Positions 15,095 to 24,469 of a stretch of 25,426 nt of DNA are shown piece by piece (the stretch's first letter is position 1; every line of letters begins with the position of its first letter). The DNA is from a virus. The stretch covers positions 41,507 to 66,932 of IMG/VR virus record IMGVR_UViG_3300037847_005438. One strand, given 5' to 3'. Position numbers and translations under genes: made by a program. Under the pieces are notes generated by a model. That model did not search any database, was not told where the DNA came from, and worked only from the letters and a program-made list of their open reading frames with translations.

Positions 15095-15101
15095 ATCTCT
15101 A

Positions 15102-15118
15102 TTATTACATAGTAATAA
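15102..15118. promoter_or_regulatory. Perfect dyad upstream of the late arm
   Basis: TTATTAC and GTAATAA flank a 3-base centre, a perfect 7-bp inverted repeat. It lies 8-24 bases upstream of the first late (minus) start codon at 15094. It could be an operator for a repressor or activator of the late arm, or a small hairpin in the leader. A TATAATAT sequence sits a little further upstream on the minus strand (around 15142-15149) and could be a -10-like box. Confidence 0.35.
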
Positions 15119-15155
15119 AGTAATTTACACTTGTTTTTAGGATATTATAAATATT

Positions 15156-15280
15156 GGGGTATAGTGCTGCGCCCCCCTCCCGGGGACCCGGCTCCCCCCA
15201 AAAATGATTTGCGAAAGCCCCACGGGCCCCTACGGCCAGTGATTTGCCGTAAACTTTTTACGTTTTGCTGGCTAGCCCCT
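15156..15280. other. GC-rich structured island between the two arms
   Basis: In a strongly AT-rich window, 30 of the 34 bases at 15166-15199 are G or C. Visible pairings include GGGGA (15182-15186) with TCCCC (15193-15197), GCCAG (15235-15239) with CTGGC (15268-15272), and CGTAAA (15248-15253) with TTTACG (15257-15262) around a CTT loop. ATTTGC occurs twice (in GATTTGCG and GATTTGCC). The island fills the divergent intergenic region. It may be a bidirectional terminator, a replication origin, a small RNA or the late-arm leader. No gene is seen in it. Confidence 0.55.
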
Positions 15281-15300
15281 ATATACTAAATGTTTTTTTA

Positions 15301-15338
15301 CACAAACTAGTTTAGTGTACAGTTAGATAATATATATG
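15301..15338 (+). promoter_or_regulatory. CACAAA/AGATAATA element, copy 1
   Basis: CACAAACTAG, then 14 bases, then AGATAATATATATG. It is the first early-arm element and lies 39 bases before the 72-residue gene. The AGATAATA block starts at base 25 of the element, as in every other copy. Confidence 0.75.
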
Positions 15339-15377
15339 TAACTAAAATAAAATATTAACTAACTAAATAATTAAATT

Positions 15378-15596
15378 ATGGAAACTAAAAGATTCGTTAT
15401 CAGAAAAACATTAATCGGAAAGAATACAATAATAACTTTCGTTAATAAGAAAAAAGAAACAGTGAAGTATAATCATGATGAAGTATACAATGCTCACAAA
15501 GAAAGATTCGACAACATGAACTGTTTCGCAAAGTATAAAAGTTATACTAATAGTAATGCGATGCCAGCATTCTGCCGCGACTTACAAATAAAGTAA
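15378..15596 (+). CDS. Small early protein, paralogue A
   Basis: 72 residues, basic, with no membrane segment. It is clearly paralogous to the 76-residue protein at 16246: both have KRFV-x-RK-x-LIGKN, NKK, YNHD-x-VY, then Cys, KYKSYT and P-x-x-CR in the same order. Two conserved cysteines (in MNCF and FCRD) are shared and could bind metal or pair. Each paralogue has its own copy of the 38-bp promoter-like element, so the gene and its control were duplicated together. As a first-expressed tiny protein it may act on host machinery. Family not recognised. Confidence 0.75.
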   Translation: METKRFVIRKTLIGKNTIITFVNKKKETVKYNHDEVYNAHKERFDNMNCFAKYKSYTNSNAMPAFCRDLQIK

Positions 15597-15608
15597 GTCA
15601 AGGCAACG

Positions 15609-15648
15609 CACTTGAAAAAGCAAGTGTGTATAGCACTTGTGTATAGCA
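15609..15648 (+). repeat. Competing CACTTG hairpins with an 11-base direct repeat
   Basis: CACTTG (15609-15614), CAAGTG (15621-15626) and CACTTG (15634-15639) allow two mutually exclusive 6-bp hairpins. TGTGTATAGCA occurs twice (15625-15635 and 15638-15648), 2 bases apart. The block lies between paralogue A and element copy 2, where a terminator or operator would be expected. There is no T-run, so intrinsic termination is not well supported. Confidence 0.45.
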
Positions 15649-15660
15649 ACGTCACTCGTA

Positions 15661-15698
15661 CACAAACTTAATTAGACCACCATCAGATAATATATGTG
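15661..15698 (+). promoter_or_regulatory. CACAAA/AGATAATA element, copy 2
   Basis: CACAAACTTA, 14 bases, AGATAATATATGTG. It lies 8 bases before the start codon of the 57-residue gene. Confidence 0.75.
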
Positions 15699-15706
15699 AA
15701 TATAAA

Positions 15707-15880
15707 ATGAAAACTATGAAGATAGAATTATACAATCATCAGAATGAATTAATTGGAATATTACTAGAATTTCCATTTGAAGAAACTAATCAAGAACTTG
15801 AAGAATTAATAGTAGATTATATTAATGAAAATACTGATGTTGAAGAAAATGAAATTGATTACTATAAAATTGTAGAGTAA
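15707..15880 (+). CDS. Small acidic early protein
   Basis: 57 residues, MKTMKIELYNHQNELIGILL followed by a very acidic, Glu/Asn-rich part ending NEIDYYKIVE. It is probably a short beta-beta-alpha fold: ELYNHQNELIGIL reads as a beta hairpin and ETNQELEELIVDYI as a helix. The strong negative charge could mimic DNA, a feature of some phage inhibitors, but this is only a suggestion. The gene has its own upstream element copy, and element copy 3 begins 2 bases after its stop. The start could be codon 4 (MKIELYN). Confidence 0.7.
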   Translation: MKTMKIELYNHQNELIGILLEFPFEETNQELEELIVDYINENTDVEENEIDYYKIVE

Positions 15881-15881
15881 T

Positions 15882-15919
15882 CACAAACTAAATAAGTCAC
15901 TCGTCAGATAATATATATG
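15882..15919 (+). promoter_or_regulatory. CACAAA/AGATAATA element, copy 3
   Basis: CACAAACTAA, 14 bases, AGATAATATATATG. It starts immediately after the stop of the 57-residue gene and lies 18 bases before the 62-residue gene. Confidence 0.75.
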
Positions 15920-15937
15920 AACTTAAAATAATAAATT

Positions 15938-16126
15938 ATGTCGAGAAATAAAATAATAGAAGAAACAGTAGAAACTATAATAGATAATATAGAAGAGAAA
16001 TTAGTAGAATATATGTTTGACCTTGGTGACTACTCAGAAACTAATAATAAATTTTATAAAGATAAAGAAGAATTAACTAACTTAGTAATAAAAGAATTAT
16101 ACAATAGAGTAAGAGAAGTAGAATAG
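15938..16126 (+). CDS. Small helical acidic early protein
   Basis: 62 residues, almost all helix: IIEETVETIIDNIEEKLVEYMFDL and then EELTNLVIKELYNRVREVE, with regular hydrophobic spacing that suggests a helical hairpin or dimer. Acidic, without Cys. It is a single-gene unit between element copies 3 and 4. No family is recognised. The start follows AAATTATG, as is usual in this arm. Confidence 0.7.
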   Translation: MSRNKIIEETVETIIDNIEEKLVEYMFDLGDYSETNNKFYKDKEELTNLVIKELYNRVREVE

Positions 16127-16155
16127 TACCTCTATACTAAAAATATCAAGTAAAC

Positions 16156-16169
16156 AAAGTATATACTTT
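16156..16169. promoter_or_regulatory. 14-bp perfect palindrome before element copy 4
   Basis: AAAGTATATACTTT is perfectly self-complementary and ends one base before element copy 4. It could be an operator for a dimeric regulator. A terminator is less likely because there is no loop. Confidence 0.35.
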
Positions 16170-16170
16170 T

Positions 16171-16208
16171 CACAAACTAAAATCGATGTAAGTAAGATAA
16201 TATAAATG
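16171..16208 (+). promoter_or_regulatory. CACAAA/AGATAATA element, copy 4
   Basis: CACAAACTAA, 14 bases, AGATAATATAAATG. It lies 37 bases before paralogue B, almost the same distance as copy 1 to paralogue A (39 bases). Confidence 0.75.
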
Positions 16209-16245
16209 TAAAAACAAATAACTAACTAAATAAAATTAAGAAATT

Positions 16246-16476
16246 ATGGAAAATGTATTAAAAAGTAAAAGATTCGTAGTAAGAAAGTCATTAATTGGTA
16301 AAAATCAAGTAATAGTATTTACTAACAAAAAAGGTGATGAAGTAACCTATAACCATGATAAAGTATATGAAATCATGAAAGAAAAATTAACTACTCTACC
16401 ATGTTGGGAAAAATATAAGTCATACACAGCGACTAATAACATACCAACTATATGTAGAAACAAAGAACTAATTTAG
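16246..16476 (+). CDS. Small early protein, paralogue B
   Basis: 76 residues, paralogous to the 72-residue protein at 15378 (shared KRFV, RK-x-LIGKN, YNHD-x-VY, Cys, KYKSYT and a final P-x-x-CR). It has a few extra N-terminal residues (MENVLKS). The two conserved Cys are kept (LPCWEK and ICRN). It is followed by a structured, probably terminating, hairpin region. Function unknown; duplication in the early region points to a dosage or specificity benefit against the host. Confidence 0.75.
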   Translation: MENVLKSKRFVVRKSLIGKNQVIVFTNKKGDEVTYNHDKVYEIMKEKLTTLPCWEKYKSYTATNNIPTICRNKELI

Positions 16477-16491
16477 TTAGTTAGACTAGTC

Positions 16492-16564
16492 GAGGTGTGC
16501 ACTTACGGTACTAATAATAGTATCTTGGACGGAAACGGTAATTAGTGTACACCTCTACTTTTTA
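16492..16564 (+). ncRNA. Structured RNA / terminator-like element
   Basis: GAGGTGTGCACT (16492-16503) pairs with AGTGTACACCTC (16544-16555) as a 12-bp helix with one G-T wobble, and TACTTTTT follows. Inside, GGTACT (16507-16512) pairs with AGTATC (16519-16524) around AATAAT, and a 19-base stretch with ACGGAAACGG remains unpaired. ACGGTA occurs twice. It is more elaborate than a plain terminator, so it could be a small RNA with its own terminating helix, or a regulated terminator after paralogue B. Confidence 0.55.
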
Positions 16565-16570
16565 CAAAGT

Positions 16571-16616
16571 GTGACATTAGGTAGTTAATATAACTAGAGT
16601 AACAGGCAATTGTCAC
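16571..16616 (+). promoter_or_regulatory. GTGACA...TGTCAC hairpin element, copy 1
   Basis: GTGACA (16571-16576) and TGTCAC (16611-16616) are complementary and flank TAACTAGAGTAACAGGC (16591-16607). An internal TAGTTA/TAACTA hairpin is also possible. The same conserved block with the same flanking arms occurs at 21687-21730. The last three bases overlap the CACAAA of element copy 5. Confidence 0.6.
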
Positions 16617-16651
16617 AAATTAAATTAAACAATAGTAAGATAATATAAATA
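16614..16651 (+). promoter_or_regulatory. CACAAA/AGATAATA element, copy 5
   Basis: CACAAATTAA, 14 bases, AGATAATATAAATA. It lies only 6 bases before the start codon of the 62-residue gene at 16658, so any transcript would have a very short leader. Confidence 0.75.
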
Positions 16652-16657
16652 AAAATT

Positions 16658-16846
16658 ATGAAATATATAACAGTGTTAGATTTTGAAGATGGTAGAATAT
16701 ACCAATATGATATAGGTTTTCAAGTAAACAAACTTGGTTGGAATCCTGATAGTGAATCGTGTGAAGGTTATTTAGTAAATAAAGGTCATAATTTAAGTAA
16801 CTGTGAGTGGATGGTTCATAAAGATAGACAAGTAATAACAAAGTAA
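16658..16846 (+). CDS. Small early protein, unknown
   Basis: 62 residues with a beta-rich look: KYITVLDFEDGRIYQYDIG is a likely beta hairpin, and the C-terminal half contains two Cys (SESCEGY and SNCEW) and ends in QVITK. No known motif. It is the first gene of a unit that continues through 16848, 17046, 17299 and 17523 with 0-3 base spacing, so these genes are probably co-expressed from element copy 5. Confidence 0.75.
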   Translation: MKYITVLDFEDGRIYQYDIGFQVNKLGWNPDSESCEGYLVNKGHNLSNCEWMVHKDRQVITK

Positions 16847-16847
16847 T

Positions 16848-17042
16848 ATGAAGATAGATTTTGATAAAGTAGAGGTATTAGAAGTAAGTAATATAAATCA
16901 ATGTGACTACCCAGAGTATTGTGACGCTTACATATCAGAGGCGAACTACAATGGTAAAACAATGAGTGATGAGATGTTAGATGAGATAAATGATAACTAT
17001 CCTGACTTTGTATACATACAAGTAATGGAACAAATAAACTAA
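16848..17042 (+). CDS. Small acidic early protein of a common phage hypothetical family
   Basis: 64 residues. It has the pattern VEVLEVSNIN, then D-x-P-E-Y-CDAYI, then a helix LDEINDNYPDFVYIQVMEQ. This order (V-x-V-x-x-V, P-x-F/Y-CDA-x-I, acidic helix) is one I know from many uncharacterised phage proteins, but I cannot name a function. Acidic, single domain. It starts 1 base after the preceding stop. Confidence 0.75.
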   Translation: MKIDFDKVEVLEVSNINQCDYPEYCDAYISEANYNGKTMSDEMLDEINDNYPDFVYIQVMEQIN

Positions 17043-17045
17043 ACT

Positions 17046-17297
17046 ATGAAAAAAAGAAATTATATACTAACCTTAGTTGACTATGGTTATAAAGTTGAAG
17101 CGTGGGATGATTATGGTAAATATGTGTGTGTCTATGAAAAAACTCGTGAAGCAGCAAGTGAATTTATAATGAACTGGTGGGAAATGTCAAAGCAAAACAA
17201 AAAAAGTGATGACAACTGGAATAAAGCAATGCTAAAAATGATAGAGTTAGACAAAAAGTATGGTATTAATAAAGATAATAGAGACGGACTAGATTAA
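17046..17297 (+). CDS. Small early protein, unknown
   Basis: 83 residues. YILTLVDYGYKVEAWDDYGKYV is a strand-rich N-terminus, followed by helices rich in Trp and Lys (ASEFIMNWWEMSKQNKK and NWNKAMLKMIELDKKYG). No metal site or membrane segment. It starts 3 bases after the preceding gene and ends 1 base before the lipoprotein gene. Family not recognised. Confidence 0.7.
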   Translation: MKKRNYILTLVDYGYKVEAWDDYGKYVCVYEKTREAASEFIMNWWEMSKQNKKSDDNWNKAMLKMIELDKKYGINKDNRDGLD

Positions 17298-17298
17298 A

Positions 17299-17523
17299 GT
17301 GTTAAACAAAATAATAAATAAAATGGTAAAAATAGTAGAAAAAAACGTAGCAGAATTAATAATAGTTTCATTAATATTACTAGTGTTTCTAACAAGTTGT
17401 GGAACCGCTAAACAAATACAAGAAGAACCAATGAAAGAGTGTTGTAAGAAAACTGCACAAGCGGTATATGAATATGAAGGATGGGTGGTAAGTGATTGTG
17501 AAAACTGTGACGAAATAGACTAA
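17299..17523 (+). CDS. Early phage lipoprotein, superinfection-exclusion candidate
   Basis: 74 residues from a GTG start (an ATG at codon 9, position 17323, is the alternative). A lipoprotein signal peptide is visible: a basic N-region, a hydrophobic core IIVSLILLVF (21-30) and the lipobox LTSC with the lipidated Cys at residue 34. The mature part is about 40 residues with four further Cys (ECCKK and DCENC) and an acidic end. Small phage lipoproteins made early often block further infection at the envelope, as T5 Llp does; that role here is inferred from type and position only. The stop overlaps the next start as TAATG. Confidence 0.75.
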   Translation: MLNKIINKMVKIVEKNVAELIIVSLILLVFLTSCGTAKQIQEEPMKECCKKTAQAVYEYEGWVVSDCENCDEID

Positions 17524-17594
17524 TGGGAGCGTGGATAATATTAATAATACTATCGGCAATGGTTTTAAGCTATTTTGGTAGTGAGTACGAGTAA
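17523..17594 (+). CDS. 23-residue membrane microprotein
   Basis: MGAWIILIILSAMVLSYFGS then EYE: a single hydrophobic helix with an acidic tail. It is translationally coupled to the lipoprotein gene through TAATG, and its stop is followed 2 bases later by element copy 6. A membrane-anchoring partner of the lipoprotein is possible. It is short, so coding is supported mainly by the coupling and the clear membrane helix. Confidence 0.5.
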   Translation: MGAWIILIILSAMVLSYFGSEYE

Positions 17595-17596
17595 AA

Positions 17597-17634
17597 CACA
17601 AATTAAATTTGACAACAGTAAGATAATAAATGTG
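17597..17634 (+). promoter_or_regulatory. CACAAA/AGATAATA element, copy 6
   Basis: CACAAATTAA, 14 bases, AGATAATAAATGTG. It lies 21 bases before the 56-residue gene. Confidence 0.75.
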
Positions 17635-17655
17635 TAACAAATAAAATAACTAACT

Positions 17656-17826
17656 ATGAACAAAATTAAATTTTTAAAGCAAGACAAAATTAGATTAAAT
17701 GGTATAACTTACAAGCCTTATACTATATGCCAACTACCTGAAAGATTTGGCTTAGTAGATAATGATGGCTACTCATACTTTACTGAGTGGTTCAATTACA
17801 AAGGTTTTACTTACATAGCAGAATAA
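17656..17826 (+). CDS. Small aromatic-rich early protein
   Basis: 56 residues, MNKIKFLKQDKIRLNGITYK followed by a Tyr/Phe-rich part (DGYSYFTEWFNYKGFTYIAE). It is probably an all-beta mini-domain built of hairpins. It starts after element copy 6 with an A/T leader (TAACTATG) and ends 1 base before the zinc-finger-like gene. Family not recognised. Confidence 0.65.
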   Translation: MNKIKFLKQDKIRLNGITYKPYTICQLPERFGLVDNDGYSYFTEWFNYKGFTYIAE

Positions 17827-17827
17827 T

Positions 17828-18037
17828 ATGAAGTGTAAGTGTAATAATATAATACCTCAAGGCCGAGTTAATCTTGGATTCAAAGTATGCGTAGACTGCT
17901 CTACGACCGAAGCATATGGTTGTGCTCCAATTATAAACCATAAAACCGGTAATTCCATACAGATTATGTCAAGCAGTGACGCTGCTCGCATATCCAAGAT
18001 AACTCAGCGTAGAGGTTATGGTACAATGTTAGGTTAA
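17828..18037 (+). CDS. Small zinc-ribbon protein, DksA/TraR-like finger
   Basis: 69 residues. C3, C5, C21 and C24 form a probable zinc site: CKCNNIIPQGR then KVCVDC. The IP-x-x-R between the Cys pairs resembles the finger of DksA/TraR proteins, which act in the RNA polymerase secondary channel, but the long helical part of DksA is absent. The rest (INHKTGNSIQIMSSSDAARI and RRGYGTM) is a pattern I know from uncharacterised phage proteins. It could bind RNA polymerase or nucleic acid. It uses more GC-rich codons than its neighbours. Confidence 0.65.
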   Translation: MKCKCNNIIPQGRVNLGFKVCVDCSTTEAYGCAPIINHKTGNSIQIMSSSDAARISKITQRRGYGTMLG

Positions 18038-18075
18038 CACAAATTAAATTAAATTAGTAACAGATAATATAATAA
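18038..18075 (+). promoter_or_regulatory. CACAAA/AGATAATA element, copy 7
   Basis: CACAAATTAA, 14 bases, AGATAATATAATAA. It starts at the stop of the zinc-ribbon gene and lies 8 bases before the 95-residue gene. Confidence 0.75.
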
Positions 18076-18083
18076 AATCAAAT

Positions 18084-18371
18084 ATGAAAAAACTAACTAA
18101 ACAAAAAGTAAAACAGTATTTCTCTTACAGGTCAGATGATAAATTACTACATTGTCCTGAAGCAATTGCCAACGCTTGTAATAGTATGGCTGATGATTTT
18201 AGTAATCACGAGTTTGCTGATGTTGATGCACTAGATCTTATGAGGTTATTACTACTTAACACAGCGTTAAATGGTAAAGGTATACCAACACATAGTTATG
18301 GTTTTCATACAGCAACAGGTCGAGCAATTATTAATAAACTACAAATGAAATATTATGAGTATAAAAAATAA
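18084..18371 (+). CDS. Early protein, unknown, helical
   Basis: 95 residues, mostly helical: an N-terminal KKLTKQKVKQYFSYRSDDKL, then an acidic helix (DFSNHEFADVDALDLMRLLLL) and a Gly/His loop (GKGIPTHSYGFHTATGRA). No catalytic motif is recognised. Its end overlaps the start of the 162-residue gene by 17 bases, so the two are probably coupled. Confidence 0.7.
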   Translation: MKKLTKQKVKQYFSYRSDDKLLHCPEAIANACNSMADDFSNHEFADVDALDLMRLLLLNTALNGKGIPTHSYGFHTATGRAIINKLQMKYYEYKK

Positions 18372-18843
18372 ATTACAACTACTTGGTATACAAGAGGTTA
18401 CAACTAAAAGACAAGAGAAAAATGGTACACGTGAATTTAAGTTACCAATAAACGATCCTTATGGTGATGCTATACACGTCGCATCTTTCGCCACTGGCTA
18501 CGTTAGACGTACTAGAACTACTGGTCGTAGTGATTGGCAACTAAATAAAACAAAGCAAGAAAAGCGCTACGTAGAAATGAAAGATTATGATACAGGTAGA
18601 CCGGTAATTAGAACATTTAAAGATACTGTTAGAATATTAATAGAAGATGAGCAAGAAAGGTTAGAGTATTTAATAAGCTATTGTCTCAAAAACTATTACA
18701 TCGGTCAAGCAAATATGTTATCAAATGGTAAATATATACCTAAATGGAAGTATGATAACAAGTGTAATGAGTGTGATAGAGATGATGGCGCTTTACAAAA
18801 CTTATCAGTAATAGTAAATAACGAAAGATATAGAATAATATAA
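18355..18843 (+). CDS. Early protein with a late Cys pair, unknown
   Basis: 162 residues, basic. It has a strand-rich N-terminus (REFKLPINDPYGDAIHVASF), an Arg/Thr-rich loop (YVRRTRTTGRSDWQLNKTK), a helix (EDEQERLEYLISYCLKNYY), and CNECDRDDG near the C-terminus, which with C-x-x-C spacing might be half a metal site. A DNA- or RNA-binding role is possible from charge alone. It overlaps the 95-residue gene upstream, and 1 base separates it from the 46-residue gene downstream. Family not recognised. Confidence 0.65.
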   Translation: MSIKNKLQLLGIQEVTTKRQEKNGTREFKLPINDPYGDAIHVASFATGYVRRTRTTGRSDWQLNKTKQEKRYVEMKDYDTGRPVIRTFKDTVRILIEDEQERLEYLISYCLKNYYIGQANMLSNGKYIPKWKYDNKCNECDRDDGALQNLSVIVNNERYRII

Positions 18844-18844
18844 T

Positions 18845-18985
18845 ATGGGAAAACAAAACGAAAAACTACTAAAAAATATAGAATTATATGAGCAAAAAAA
18901 GAAAGCTGAACAGCAAAAATCCAAAATACTGGGACAAAAGCCAGATAACCGAAAAACCAATAGCAAAGAAAAAGCTAATGTGTGA
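18845..18985 (+). CDS. 46-residue Lys/Gln-rich protein
   Basis: MGKQNEKLLKNIELYEQKKK continues with AEQQKSKILGQKPDNRKTNS and a short end. It is probably a single charged helix. The ATG sits 1 base after the preceding stop, the usual spacing in this arm, which supports translation. It overlaps the 45-residue frame at 18888 by 98 bases in another frame, so one of the two may be spurious. Confidence 0.45.
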   Translation: MGKQNEKLLKNIELYEQKKKAEQQKSKILGQKPDNRKTNSKEKANV

Positions 18986-19025
18986 AACTAAAGGTGTTAA
19001 AATATATGGAATATGGTACGCTTAG
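18888..19025 (+). CDS. 45-residue protein in an overlapping frame
   Basis: MSKKRKLNSKNPKYWDKSQI then TEKPIAKKKLMCETKGVKIY and GIWYA. It contains Trp, Tyr, Cys and Gly, a more protein-like composition than the overlapping 46-residue frame. The ATG lies inside that gene, so translation would need an internal start. It ends 22 bases before the candidate RNA at 19048. Confidence 0.45.
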   Translation: MSKKRKLNSKNPKYWDKSQITEKPIAKKKLMCETKGVKIYGIWYA

Positions 19026-19047
19026 TAGTCATATGGCCTAGTTAATA

Positions 19048-19267
19048 CGAGGTGAGGGTGGTAGCGCGTGAGACGTGTAGCAGAGGAACGTGGGTTGAAA
19101 TTACCTGGTGCACAAAATAATACGTTCTAATAATATCTGCATCTTACTCACTTGGCAGAACGGCAGGATAAAGCAAATATAAGGAAGAACAAAGATCGAG
19201 CAGGTACAATTTAAAATACCAAGGAGTCGAGCCTTATAAGAACCACACCTGCCCGACCTCGTTTTAT
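19048..19267 (+). ncRNA. Candidate structured noncoding RNA (~214 nt)
   Basis: The 19026-19316 stretch has no gene and is more GC-rich than its surroundings. CGAGGT (19048-19053) pairs with ACCTCG (19256-19261), which is followed by TTTTAT, as if a closing helix doubles as a terminator. Inside, GCAGGT (19200-19205) pairs with ACCTGC (19247-19252), GGTA/TACC makes a hairpin at 19203-19220, CTGC/GCAG another at 19137-19158, and GCGCGT-GAG-ACGTGT a third near 19062-19078. Element copy 8 begins 7 bases after the helix. GAGGAA after the third hairpin and GCCTTAT near the 3' end faintly recall RNase P RNA, but the P4 pairing is not convincing. Confidence 0.55.
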
Positions 19268-19305
19268 CACAAATTAAAATAGAAGTAAAATAGATAATAT
19301 AATAA
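19268..19305 (+). promoter_or_regulatory. CACAAA/AGATAATA element, copy 8
   Basis: CACAAATTAA, 14 bases, AGATAATATAATAA. It lies 11 bases before the 133-residue gene and directly follows the candidate RNA. It is the last intergenic copy; the long gene block downstream could be read from it. Confidence 0.75.
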
Positions 19306-19316
19306 AATTAAATACA

Positions 19317-19718
19317 ATGACAGAAAACGAATTATTACTAAAAATTGAAGGCTTAGAAAAAGCTATCAAAGAACATCAAGACTTTGTTAATACGTATGGT
19401 AATACGTTAACAACTACTAAACAAGAACTAGTTGACTTACACAAACCAGAGTTAACTACATCTCAAATGGAAGCTATTGAACGTGCTGTGGAACAAGCTG
19501 TTAATGAGTTTGATTTTACAGATACAGATAACTATGAAATAGATTATAGTCTTGACTATGATAATAGAGTACAATGTGAATCACATGAGTTTATTAATGA
19601 AAGTGATTTAGTTGAAATGATAGTTAACAGAGTGTGTAAATTATTCAAAGAAGTTGAAGAGTTAGACACAACAGAACCTGACCATCATAAAGTTACTCAC
19701 GTAGAAAAAATTATATAA
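19317..19718 (+). CDS. Acidic coiled-coil early protein
   Basis: 133 residues, strongly acidic. Residues ~1-40 form a coiled coil (LLLKIEGLEKAIKEHQDF), followed by a helix (SQMEAIERAVEQAVNEF) and an Asp-rich segment (DFTDTDNYEIDYSLDYDN). It ends with a His/Glu stretch. No enzymatic motif. The acidic, repetitive surface could mimic DNA, which is speculative. One base separates it from the gp88-like gene. Confidence 0.7.
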   Translation: MTENELLLKIEGLEKAIKEHQDFVNTYGNTLTTTKQELVDLHKPELTTSQMEAIERAVEQAVNEFDFTDTDNYEIDYSLDYDNRVQCESHEFINESDLVEMIVNRVCKLFKEVEELDTTEPDHHKVTHVEKII

Positions 19719-19719
19719 T

Positions 19720-20328
19720 ATGAATCTATTAACACAAAATAGTAAACTAAAACGTACATCTAAAGAATTAGGCTTAAGAGTATTTAACTTTGGTATACCT
19801 GCATACAGGTCTGCTAGTGGTAAATTAACATGTCCATTTGCTGATGAGTGTGTTAAGTTTTGTTATGCTAAAAAAGGTGCATACATATGGAGTAATGTAC
19901 AGCCTGCGTTTGAAAAGCGTTATCAACTTAGTAAAACAGATAAATTTATACCAGCGATGATGGACGAGATAGTTAACAAGCGTCCTGATTATATCAGAGT
20001 ACACGATAGCGGTGATTATTATTCACCTGCATACTTAGAAAAATGGTTACGTATAGCTAGAACATTTCCTGAAGTTAAATTCTACAGTTATACTAATTGT
20101 GTAAATATGCTTAAAAATGTAGATTTACCTGATAACTATGATATTATATTCTCAGACAGTGGTAAACAAAAACATATGATAGATCAAACTATAGATCGTC
20201 ATACTAAAATATTTGACAGTCAAGATGAATTAATGTCTAACGGTTACATAGATGCATCTAAGATTGATTTATATGCAACGAAATGGTTTAACAAAGATAA
20301 TATTAACGTAGGGCTTATAGCTCATTAA
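19720..20328 (+). CDS. Phage gp88-family protein (Cys-rich N-terminal motif)
   Basis: 202 residues. The start NLLTQNSKL, the Cys cluster CPFADECVKFCYAKKG (C38, C44, C48), RVHDSGDYYS (93-102) and the barrel-like FYSYTNCVN match the Gene product 88 family known from mycobacteriophages and others. The three clustered Cys suggest a metal or Fe-S site, and the alternating strand-helix pattern suggests a TIM-barrel-like fold, in some ways like a radical SAM enzyme. No function is established to my knowledge. It probably starts at 19720, 1 base after the preceding stop. Confidence 0.8.
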   Translation: MNLLTQNSKLKRTSKELGLRVFNFGIPAYRSASGKLTCPFADECVKFCYAKKGAYIWSNVQPAFEKRYQLSKTDKFIPAMMDEIVNKRPDYIRVHDSGDYYSPAYLEKWLRIARTFPEVKFYSYTNCVNMLKNVDLPDNYDIIFSDSGKQKHMIDQTIDRHTKIFDSQDELMSNGYIDASKIDLYATKWFNKDNINVGLIAH

Positions 20329-20338
20329 AAATTAAATT

Positions 20339-20722
20339 ATGTCAACAAGAGCACAAATACGATTTGCTACGCGTGAAGCAGGTCAATCATTTAACAAGCA
20401 TCCAAATGCTATACACGCACAATTTTACAAGCACAGCGATGGTTATCCTGAAGGTTTAGGTATAGATATAGCTAATTCTATTATGAATAATGTAGGATTA
20501 AATGGTATTGAAATAGAACCATTAACACATAAGCATAGTGATTTAGAATATATATATTATATTTGGCAAGCACCAGGTAAAGAAACATTTATAAGTATAT
20601 TTGAAGTAAATATGATACCAGCTTACTGCGAAACTTGTGGTCAAGACGTACAACTTGAAGATGCTTGTGTATTTGTAGGATTACCAACAGAATTAATAAA
20701 TAAGTATTCACAAACTAAATAA
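20339..20722 (+). CDS. Conserved phage protein with C-terminal Cys pair
   Basis: 127 residues. The opening MSTRAQIRFA, then FYKHSDGYPEGLG, is a pattern common to many uncharacterised phage and bacterial proteins (S-T-R-x-x-I, then F-Y-x-H-x-DGYP). The C-terminal part has YCETCGQ (C-x-x-C), perhaps half a zinc site. It is likely a compact alpha/beta domain. No function is known to me. Its last codons (SQTK and stop) coincide with the start of embedded element copy 9. Confidence 0.75.
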   Translation: MSTRAQIRFATREAGQSFNKHPNAIHAQFYKHSDGYPEGLGIDIANSIMNNVGLNGIEIEPLTHKHSDLEYIYYIWQAPGKETFISIFEVNMIPAYCETCGQDVQLEDACVFVGLPTELINKYSQTK

Positions 20723-20746
20723 GAAATATGACAGATAATAAAAGAG
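20709..20746 (+). promoter_or_regulatory. CACAAA/AGATAATA element, copy 9 (inside coding sequence)
   Basis: CACAAACTAA, 14 bases, AGATAATAAAAGAG, with the same internal spacing as the eight intergenic copies. It straddles the junction of two genes: the CACAAACTAA block encodes the end of the 127-residue protein and AGATAATA encodes residues 2-5 of the next. If active, it could not serve the gene at 20728 from its own ATG and would feed genes further downstream. Confidence 0.5.
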
Positions 20747-21680: not shown

Positions 21681-21730
21681 GGGACTGTGACAACAGCCCC
21701 TAAATAACTAGAGTAATAGGCTAATGTCAC
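21681..21730 (+). promoter_or_regulatory. GTGACA...TGTCAC hairpin element, copy 2, over a start codon
   Basis: GTGACA (21687-21692) and TGTCAC (21725-21730) flank TAACTAGAGTAATAGGC (21705-21721), as at 16571-16616. The start codon of the 206-residue gene (21724-21726) overlaps the 3' arm, so the long helix would hide it. A competing hairpin, GGGACTGT with ACAGCCCC around GACA (21681-21700), uses the 5' arm and would free the start. This looks like a translational switch. Confidence 0.55.
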
Positions 21731-22344
21731 ACGAAAGAAAATTAAAGTATTTAAATCAAAACCAAATTGTATACCGTAGACAACCAATAAAAGATATACC
21801 AGACATTGATAATGAAGTATATATGTTTTATGTTAACGGCACACATGAGTGTTACGAACTGTTTAGATCATCAGCTAAAATAACTACATACAAATCTCTT
21901 AAATGGCATTTGTTAGTATTATGGTATTTAAACCCTGATTTAGATCAAGATAAGTTTATGCAACTAGCAGAAGTTATATGCCACAAACCAAATGGCTTTG
22001 TAAGTTTTGCTATACACATTGATTTATTACGTAAAATAGTATATGAAGTTAGCATGCTAGATTTAGATGAGCCACCTAAAAACAAGCTGCGTAAAGTTAT
22101 ATTTAAACCATTTACTAGAGTTAGTAAAGAAGAAAAATTACGTATTGTAGGTGAGTTAATAGGTAGAACAAAACGTATAACTCAAGATGATATTTACGAC
22201 TGCATGTTAGAAATAAATAATAATAAAGAAAAAATAACTATAGCTAAACTAGCTAAGTTATTAAGCTGTACAAGTAGAACAATACACAGGAACATAGGTG
22301 TAGAATTAAAACGAGAAAAAGAATTATTAAATAAACAAATATGA
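21724..22344 (+). CDS. Helix-turn-helix protein coupled to the sigma factor
   Basis: 206 residues. The C-terminus (171-191, ITIAKLAKLLSCTSRTIHRN) is a clear helix-turn-helix with a charged tail (ELKREKELLNKQI). The N-terminal part is mixed alpha/beta (VYMFYVNGTHECYELF) with a central helical region. It overlaps the next gene, a sigma factor, as ATGA, so the pair is probably made together and may act together in transcription control. Its start codon lies in the hairpin element described at 21681. It may be a transcription regulator or a replication initiator. Confidence 0.7.
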   Translation: MSHERKLKYLNQNQIVYRRQPIKDIPDIDNEVYMFYVNGTHECYELFRSSAKITTYKSLKWHLLVLWYLNPDLDQDKFMQLAEVICHKPNGFVSFAIHIDLLRKIVYEVSMLDLDEPPKNKLRKVIFKPFTRVSKEEKLRIVGELIGRTKRITQDDIYDCMLEINNNKEKITIAKLAKLLSCTSRTIHRNIGVELKREKELLNKQI

Positions 22345-23102
22345 AAAGTTATAATATACAGAACTATATTAGATATAAAAAAGATTTAGAAAAAACAATA
22401 GCAAGAATAAAAATAAAAGAACATTATTCTTTATATGATAGAGATACATTAGTAACTTTATTTATGCCACTTGTAGAAAATATAGCTAGAAAATTTGCAA
22501 CATCACAACAGGCTAGCGGTGTAATGAGTATAAATGATCTTATACAAGAAGGTAATTTAAACTTAATAAAAGCAGTTGATCGTATAGATTGGGATAAAAT
22601 GTCAGAGTCTGAAGATCAAGAAAAAACTATGAAATCATTTTTATCTAAACGTATTAAAGGTGGTATACGTAGGGCAATAGATATTAACAGAGGTCAAATG
22701 CGTTTACCAGAACATATAACAAACGAAATACGTAAAAACTTTGGTAAAGATAAAAAAATGGTTGCTATGTTTTTTAACTCTATATTTTTAAGTATAGATG
22801 CGGGTTCAAGAGATGATGAAGATATGTTGTATCAAATAGAAGATCAGTCAGAGCCTTATAATCAAGAATTTTTAAATATGTATCTTACAAGCTTATTAAA
22901 ACAACATCTTGATGACAAAGAGTTTCATGTATTAAGATTAAGTTATGGTCTTGATTGTGACAAGCACTCAGCTAAAGAAATTGCTAAGTATTTAGGCATT
23001 GAAGGCAGTGGTGCTTATGTACGTGTTTCGCAGTTAAAAAAGCAAGCAGTTAATAAATTAATAGAAAATGTAGATCACTCGCAAGTGATTGATTATCTGT
23101 AA
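22341..23102 (+). CDS. Sigma-70-like factor
   Basis: 253 residues. Region 2: LFMPLVENIARKFA (40-53), INDLIQEGNLNLIKAVDRID (64-83) and the promoter-melting/recognition helix SFLSKRIKGGIRRAIDI (99-115). Region 3-like: MRLPEHITNEIRK (120-132). Region 4: FHVLRLSYGL (195-204), AKEIAKYLGI (211-220) and VRVSQLKKQAVNKL (227-240) as a helix-turn-helix. There is no region 1.1. It would redirect host RNA polymerase to phage promoters, perhaps those of the late arm. Start at 22341 in an ATGA overlap with the preceding gene. Confidence 0.85.
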   Translation: MKSYNIQNYIRYKKDLEKTIARIKIKEHYSLYDRDTLVTLFMPLVENIARKFATSQQASGVMSINDLIQEGNLNLIKAVDRIDWDKMSESEDQEKTMKSFLSKRIKGGIRRAIDINRGQMRLPEHITNEIRKNFGKDKKMVAMFFNSIFLSIDAGSRDDEDMLYQIEDQSEPYNQEFLNMYLTSLLKQHLDDKEFHVLRLSYGLDCDKHSAKEIAKYLGIEGSGAYVRVSQLKKQAVNKLIENVDHSQVIDYL

Positions 23103-23769: not shown

Positions 23770-24469
23770 AAACGACGAAGACTACTACGGTGAGTTTGGT
23801 AATCAGTTTATATCTAACTCACACGTTGGTAGATTATTAAAAGATCCATTAAGAGCCTTTGAACCAAGCAAACCATCTCCAGCATTTTTAGTTGGTGGGT
23901 ATTTTCATACTTGTATATTAGAACCTGATAAAATAGATAAGTATAAAGTTGTTAAATCAACTACTAGAAATACTAAAGCTTACAAAGATGTTGCTGGTGG
24001 CGAGCTGTGTCTATTGCAACACGAAGTAGATACAATTGAATTAATGAGAGATAAAGTTATGCAAAACGATATATGTAAAGATCTTATACAAGGTCCACAA
24101 ATTGAATACGAACAACCACAGATAATAAATATGTTCGACAACGACTGGAAAGGTAAAGCAGATATTGTTAACCATAACGAAAAACTAGTTATTGATTTAA
24201 AAACAACAGCAGACATTGATAAGTTTCAATGGTCAGCGACTAAGTATAACTATGACTCACAAGCTTATATCTATAGTAAGTTATTTGGATATGAGATGTT
24301 ATTTATAGTTATCGATAAAGCCACTCATAAAATAGGTATGTTTGATTGTTCGCCTGAGTTTTATGAACGTGGGGAAGACAAGGTGCGTAGAGCAAGTGAA
24401 GCTTATGACTTGTTTTACAAGACCAAGGACTTTGATCCTAAACAATATTTCATAAGCAAAACCTTATAA
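23729..24469 (+). CDS. PD-(D/E)XK exonuclease
   Basis: 246 residues. The catalytic core is KGKADIV (141-147, D145) and LVIDLKTT (153-160, D156 and K158), with Q178 in SQAYIYS as the following motif. FLVGGYFHTCIL (53-64, H60) is the N-terminal helix motif of phage RecE/YqaJ-like exonucleases. It would resect DNA ends to give single strands for the ERF protein. The ATG at 23729 overlaps the ERF gene, indicating coupled translation. A later start is possible, but the overlap is typical for this arm. Confidence 0.88.
   Translation: MTLEKKSQILQRLKNDEDYYGEFGNQFISNSHVGRLLKDPLRAFEPSKPSPAFLVGGYFHTCILEPDKIDKYKVVKSTTRNTKAYKDVAGGELCLLQHEVDTIELMRDKVMQNDICKDLIQGPQIEYEQPQIINMFDNDWKGKADIVNHNEKLVIDLKTTADIDKFQWSATKYNYDSQAYIYSKLFGYEMLFIVIDKATHKIGMFDCSPEFYERGEDKVRRASEAYDLFYKTKDFDPKQYFISKTL

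Follow-up and report, generated by a model that had tools for sequence, protein, structure and literature searches.

A repeated two-part element in a virus of Bacteroidota and its relatives, probably a promoter class read by a phage-encoded sigma factor

Which factor reads a short element that is repeated, always in the same orientation, before the small genes of an uncultured virus? The question was raised by the IMG/VR record IMGVR_UViG_3300037847_005438 (66,932 bases), whose positions 41,507 to 66,932 form the window analyzed here (25,426 bases). A first-pass annotation had noticed nine plus-strand copies of CACAAAYTWA followed at an invariant distance by AGATAATA, and had considered plausible either an early class of non-standard promoters, used by a phage factor or an alternative one, or an operator. 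Based on sequence comparisons, we regard the copies, with good confidence, as promoters for the host core RNA polymerase equipped with a sigma factor of the phage. Using CACAAAYTWA-N14-AGATAATA with up to 3 mismatches as search pattern, the window and the whole record were scanned, with dinucleotide shuffles and the reversed pattern as controls. In the window 10 plus-strand and 0 minus-strand matches were found, compared to 0.56 (standard deviation 0.78) in the shuffles, none of which reached ten. The whole record yielded 10 forward and 0 reverse matches and 0 for the reversed pattern; the motif is thus not frequent at random genome positions, and the earlier remark that minus-strand copies were not seen was borne out. 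With a profile built from the ten copies, these scored 37-49 bits, while the next best site on both strands and in the reversed sequence, used as control, stayed below -5. Among CACAAA/AGATAATA pairs up to 60 bases apart the distance of 24 alone recurred, which confirms the invariant spacing. All nine reported copies were recovered with AGATAATA at base 25, the first differing at one base (CACAAACTAG), and a tenth had been overlooked. The element is promoter-like, recurs before phage genes and differs from the host promoter.

Numbering GATAAT as -12 to -7 places +1 at position 38 of the element. The copies, all on the plus strand, are located at 15301..15332 (-10 GATAAT; predicted +1 15338, leader of about 40 nucleotides to the ATG at 15378), 15661..15692 (predicted +1 15698, ATG 15707), 15882..15913 (15919, ATG 15938), 16171..16202 (16208, ATG 16246), 16614..16645 (16651, ATG 16658), 17597..17628 (17634, ATG 17656), 18038..18069 (18075, ATG 18084) and 19268..19299 (19305, ATG 19317). 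The ninth copy, 20709..20740 (predicted +1 20746), extends from the tail of one gene into the beginning of the following one, whose annotated ATG (20728) falls within the spacer. The tenth, 24096..24127 (predicted +1 24133), lies within a DUF3799 gene and is also present in the close relatives L012, L014 and L019. At its predicted start site an in-frame ATG was observed; this copy could give rise to a truncated nuclease-domain protein. All ten copies have a purine at position 38, and predicted leaders measure 7-40 nucleotides. The 6-39 bases to the start codon given before come near this distance from the predicted +1, while the distance from the end of the element to the ATG is 12-45 nucleotides. 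The genome is laid out as two divergent arms with a hub near 15100-15300, and 8 of the 10 copies fall within the initial 4 kb of the rightward arm, before genes of 56-133 residues; the ninth follows 5.4 kb into the arm.

The same arm encodes a sigma-70-type factor with regions 2 and 4 (22341..23102, plus strand, 253 amino acids). It matched Pfam Sigma70_r2 (1.8e-6) and, at the cut-off, Sigma70_r4 (2.9e-5), PHROG 351, and in profile comparison SigA/RpoD chains (7e-10). Its predicted structure gave a fold match to SigA, with a mean predicted local distance difference test score (pLDDT) of 76 and uncertain domain packing. The start of the sigma gene is overlapped from upstream by a gene for a helix-turn-helix (HTH) protein (21724..22344, plus strand, 206 amino acids), which matched HTH_11 slightly under the cut-off and found no match in a fold search against solved structures. 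An HTH gene was found at 76 of 81 sigma loci; its product is a candidate co-regulator. The HTH protein is 87% identical to that of L029, compared to 69% for sigma, indicating that the HTH gene recombined away from sigma. The copy at 20709 is the closest element upstream of the HTH-sigma operon, and no terminator-like site was found on the plus strand between the two.

A search of IMG/VR with the sigma factor yielded 80 loci at 60-90% identity, and about 140 sigma-bearing relatives carry the element, in the fuller form TTACAAACTAAATACGA-N8-nGATAATA and almost always on the sigma strand. The studied genome is a degenerate member, with C replacing T at position 1 and little left of TACGA beyond G15 and A16. 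The earlier statement that the intervening bases are not conserved consequently holds within this genome only, since in the relatives conservation is among the highest at positions 9-16 (AAATACGA). Strict matches were found in 31 of 41 long sigma-bearing records, 124 in total and approximately 118 of them on the sigma strand, compared to 0 in 9 long sigma-less TerL relatives; the reversed pattern gave 0 in all 50 long records. The element was also not found in the MW202828 and elemoA genomes. Some records lacking strict matches hold clear variants, namely TTACAATA in L022, TTACAGTC in L062, TTGCAAAC in L081 and L084, and GATATTA in L087. In the reverse direction, 40 long records were selected by element content, one of them already known as sigma-bearing. 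Sigma was present in 31, among them every one of the 24 that reach 55 kb or more; the remaining nine measure 48-53 kb, their copies lie within approximately 6 kb of a contig end, on the side where sigma would be expected, and one still has the HTH gene at its end. Linkage across the relatives was thus observed in both directions: truncated records aside, sigma is a trans-acting factor present wherever the element was found. For the record of L293, it is noted that sigma seems to be disrupted, with internal stops and two frames that overlap (G066:C1:55767-56520), with the element present.

Start sites were examined in 902 distinct copies from 141 genomes, counting a start codon if its frame had at least 30 codons. 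Of the 902 copies, 893 have G or A at position 38 and 610 have T at position 37. An ATG starts exactly at position 38 in 79 copies (48 genomes), compared to 3 at position 37 and 10 at position 39, while a second, broad peak of start codons at positions 55-62 corresponds to an ordinary short leader. Start codons locked to the predicted +1 are hard to explain unless RNA starts there, which argues for a promoter, and leaderless mRNAs are predicted for many relatives. Bacteroidota mRNAs normally have leaders and leaderless ones are rare there: in Flavobacterium johnsoniae 87% of predicted transcripts have leaders above 10 nucleotides (PMC6847099), and among 37 Bacteroidetes/Chlorobi genomes one yielded leaderless genes (PMC3160421). 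Separately, in 82 of 349 copies of the relatives the sequence ATGTAA, a start followed by an immediate stop, overlaps the predicted +1 at positions 36-41.

Taken together, the fixed geometry of -10 and +1, the purine and the ATG at +1 and the linkage to a phage sigma lend good support to the earlier proposal of non-standard promoters recognized by a phage factor, serving genes that may be early or middle. According to this reading, host core RNA polymerase with the phage sigma would read the -10 element GATAATA (-12 to -6) and recognize it together with the upstream box at -37 to -22 (TTACAAACTAAATACGA in the relatives). RNA would start at the purine 7 nucleotides beyond the -10 element, and the rightward arm's small genes would be transcribed into mRNAs with a short leader or, in many relatives, with none. 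Sigma would activate its own synthesis, in the studied genome by read-through from 20709 and in relatives from a copy directly before its gene; the first sigma may come from the virion, a host promoter or leaky expression. Such a copy immediately precedes sigma in about nine relatives, with the sigma ATG at position 38 in four and at most 3 bases away in the others; a weak case for autoregulation is L384, where the nearest copy lies 135 bases from sigma. Ten relatives hold a copy on the opposite strand that faces the opposite direction, in most cases leading from the hub to the leftward arm, so that the promoter class need not be limited to one arm.

How the upstream half is read deserves particular attention. 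The box exceeds the usual length of a -35 element. Its proximal TACGA and the -10 element are nearly constant, while the distal part varies by lineage, and within each genome all copies share one variant of the upstream half (TTACAATA, TTACAGTC, TTGCAAAC, TTCGAAAC or CCCCTAAC), which fits sites read by one trans-acting factor. That this factor is sigma is further suggested by four genomes (G091-G094, two of them above 60 kb) in which no HTH gene was found and in which sigma and element are kept. We are fully aware of observations that weigh against direct recognition of the whole element by sigma. Identical region 4.2 helices occur with different distal halves (L026/L496 and L457/L436), and the upstream half is therefore not determined by region 4.2 alone. 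TACGA, at -26 to -22, is no usual sigma contact. Moreover, presence and absence of sigma and element follow one clade, and shared ancestry accordingly explains part of their co-occurrence.

The same data can be accommodated by a promoter with two readers, which we consider possible and somewhat doubtful. Here sigma would read the -10 element, perhaps with TACGA, and the distal TTACAAAC would be a separate activator site for the HTH protein or another factor, similar to the replacement of a -35 element by T4 MotA; such an arrangement, in which a -10 element is coupled to an activator site upstream and the distal half has its own reader, is possible. This would agree with a distal half that varies against constant TACGA and GATAATA, with the occurrence of one region 4.2 helix beside different distal halves, and with a TAC repeated at an 11-base period. 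It would also agree with the promoters of the four HTH-less genomes, all of which have TTCGAAAC-like distal halves in place of TTACAAAC. On the other hand, similar HTH recognition helices also occur with different distal halves (L496, L053), and the distal half lies at -37 to -31, where a -35 element belongs. Matrix correlations put HTH slightly above sigma, however, partial values between upstream box and HTH were tiny (about 0.07-0.13). Covariation between residues of sigma or HTH and bases of the motif gave suggestive pairs, for example TTGCAAAC with a recognition-helix change from AYVRVSQ to ATVIVSQ (L081/L084), and no firm assignment, because the changed helix ATVIVSQ also occurs with A at that position. 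As a tentative generalization, which we would not favor over its negation, the sigma factors of these Bacteroidota viruses may form a family with two-part promoters, in which constant TACGA and GATAATA are tied to sigma, the upstream half is re-specified throughout the genome in each lineage by a replaceable partner, and the ATG is fused to +1, yielding leaderless mRNAs.

The remaining explanations fare worse. First transcription must somehow be started by the host, and a host alternative sigma factor might read the elements while the phage sigma serves other promoters. We consider this improbable, as the element is missing from sigma-less relatives of the same terminase family, changes in concert throughout a lineage, and is placed before the phage sigma gene itself. 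The operator of the first-pass annotation, or another repeated protein-binding site for a repressor or for replication, would agree with a repeated and mostly intergenic arrangement on one strand. A pure operator is nevertheless very unlikely, because a site that is no promoter would not hold the start codon at a constant spacing, and the -10-like core, the purine at the expected +1 and the ATG fixed there in 79 copies speak for transcription. Bacteroidota housekeeping promoters (-33 TTTG/-7 TAnnTTTG; PMC6847099), the likely host type given that the nearest cultured relatives infect flavobacteria, can practically be dismissed, as the consensus is missing from the element and not enriched in the genome. 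In agreement with the earlier annotation, TTG-N16-20-TAnnTTTG was not found above the reversed control, and none of the aligned copies fits the sigma-ABfr promoter (TTTG at -33, TAnnTTTG at -7). Reading the minus-strand CACAAACTTA as a TAnnTTTG box fitted one copy only. E. coli-type sigma-70 promoters (TTGACA-17-TATAAT) showed no excess over shuffles; the -10 element resembles TATAAT but has an invariant G at -12. A virion RNA polymerase was rejected with neither motif nor family match: the D.DGD motif of multisubunit-type RNA polymerases is absent from genome frames longer than 250 residues, and no RNA polymerase family match was obtained among the large proteins scanned.

Phage head families were matched by the terminase, portal and capsid proteins, and a C-terminal crAss muzzle domain was recognized in a large structural protein. 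Terminase identity amounts to 64% with MW202828 and 45% with Flavobacterium elemo phages; further matches were to phages of Cellulophaga, Tenacibaculum and Maribacter. The virus is related to phages of marine Bacteroidota, and due to this resemblance to phages of flavobacteria, the host is most likely a flavobacterium. A scan of bacterial genomes with the phage sigma gave only distant sigma factors (23-40% identity, barring one 25-residue stretch) and no host. On the minus arm, which has few intergenic gaps, no promoter motif was seen. Near the hub, the small genes 15378-15596 and 16246-16476, each with its own element copy, look like paralogues. Within the hub, 15160-15290 forms a GC-rich island in a genome of 32% GC, with a minus-strand folding z of -1.9; several relatives have an element on the minus strand that is directed across a comparable GC-rich region. 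Upstream of the copy at 19268, about 215 non-coding bases (19045-19262) have ends able to pair and contain the blocks ACGAGGTGAGGGTGGTAGCGCGTGAGACGTGTA ... TACTCACTTGGCAGAACGGCAGGATAAAGCAA ... CCACACCTGCCCGACCTCGT, conserved in several relatives. This region gave no Rfam match and has an ordinary folding energy (z 0.05); it is possibly a small RNA.

If our reading is correct, both a class of promoters and the sigma factor reading it would be available for a large and uncultured group of Bacteroidota phages, and operons, start sites and leaderless genes would become predictable from sequence. The lineages in which every copy underwent the same change of the upstream half together would represent a natural experiment on shifts of promoter specificity. 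E. coli promoters do not function in Bacteroidota, and the phages would offer candidate orthogonal sigma/promoter pairs for this phylum. Phage sigma factors with private promoters are already known; the variant in Bacteroidota phages is new. No description of this system was found in the open literature, subscription papers being outside that search.

How does the system compare to known ones? T4 middle promoters are used by host sigma-70 with MotA and AsiA, MotA replacing the -35 element. Like these, with their MotA box and -10 element, the present promoters have a long upstream box approximately 9-13 bases from the -10 element; unlike T4, the present genome has its own sigma gene, and no match between its HTH protein and MotA was obtained in the searches made. 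The crAss-like phage phi14:2 has a virion RNA polymerase (reviewed in PMC10136315). Both are related podoviruses of Bacteroidota with phage-controlled transcription, in the present case apparently by a sigma factor instead of such a polymerase. Tested precedents for phage sigma factors with private promoters are phages phiEco32 and 7-11 (PMC8948821). The phiEco32 sigma gp36 likewise has a dedicated promoter class, found before several operons including middle genes, however, with a single element (tAATGTAtA) and a sigma devoid of region 4 (PMC8948821), while region 4 and an upstream box are both present here. Salmonella phage 7-11 also encodes its sigma, SaPh711_gp47, in the same genome as its bipartite promoters, GTAAtg-(16)-aCTA with starts 6-9 bp from the element (PMC8948821). 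Those promoters serve late genes in an enterobacterial host, whereas the elements described here have other sequences, another spacing and an upstream box of approximately 16 bases.

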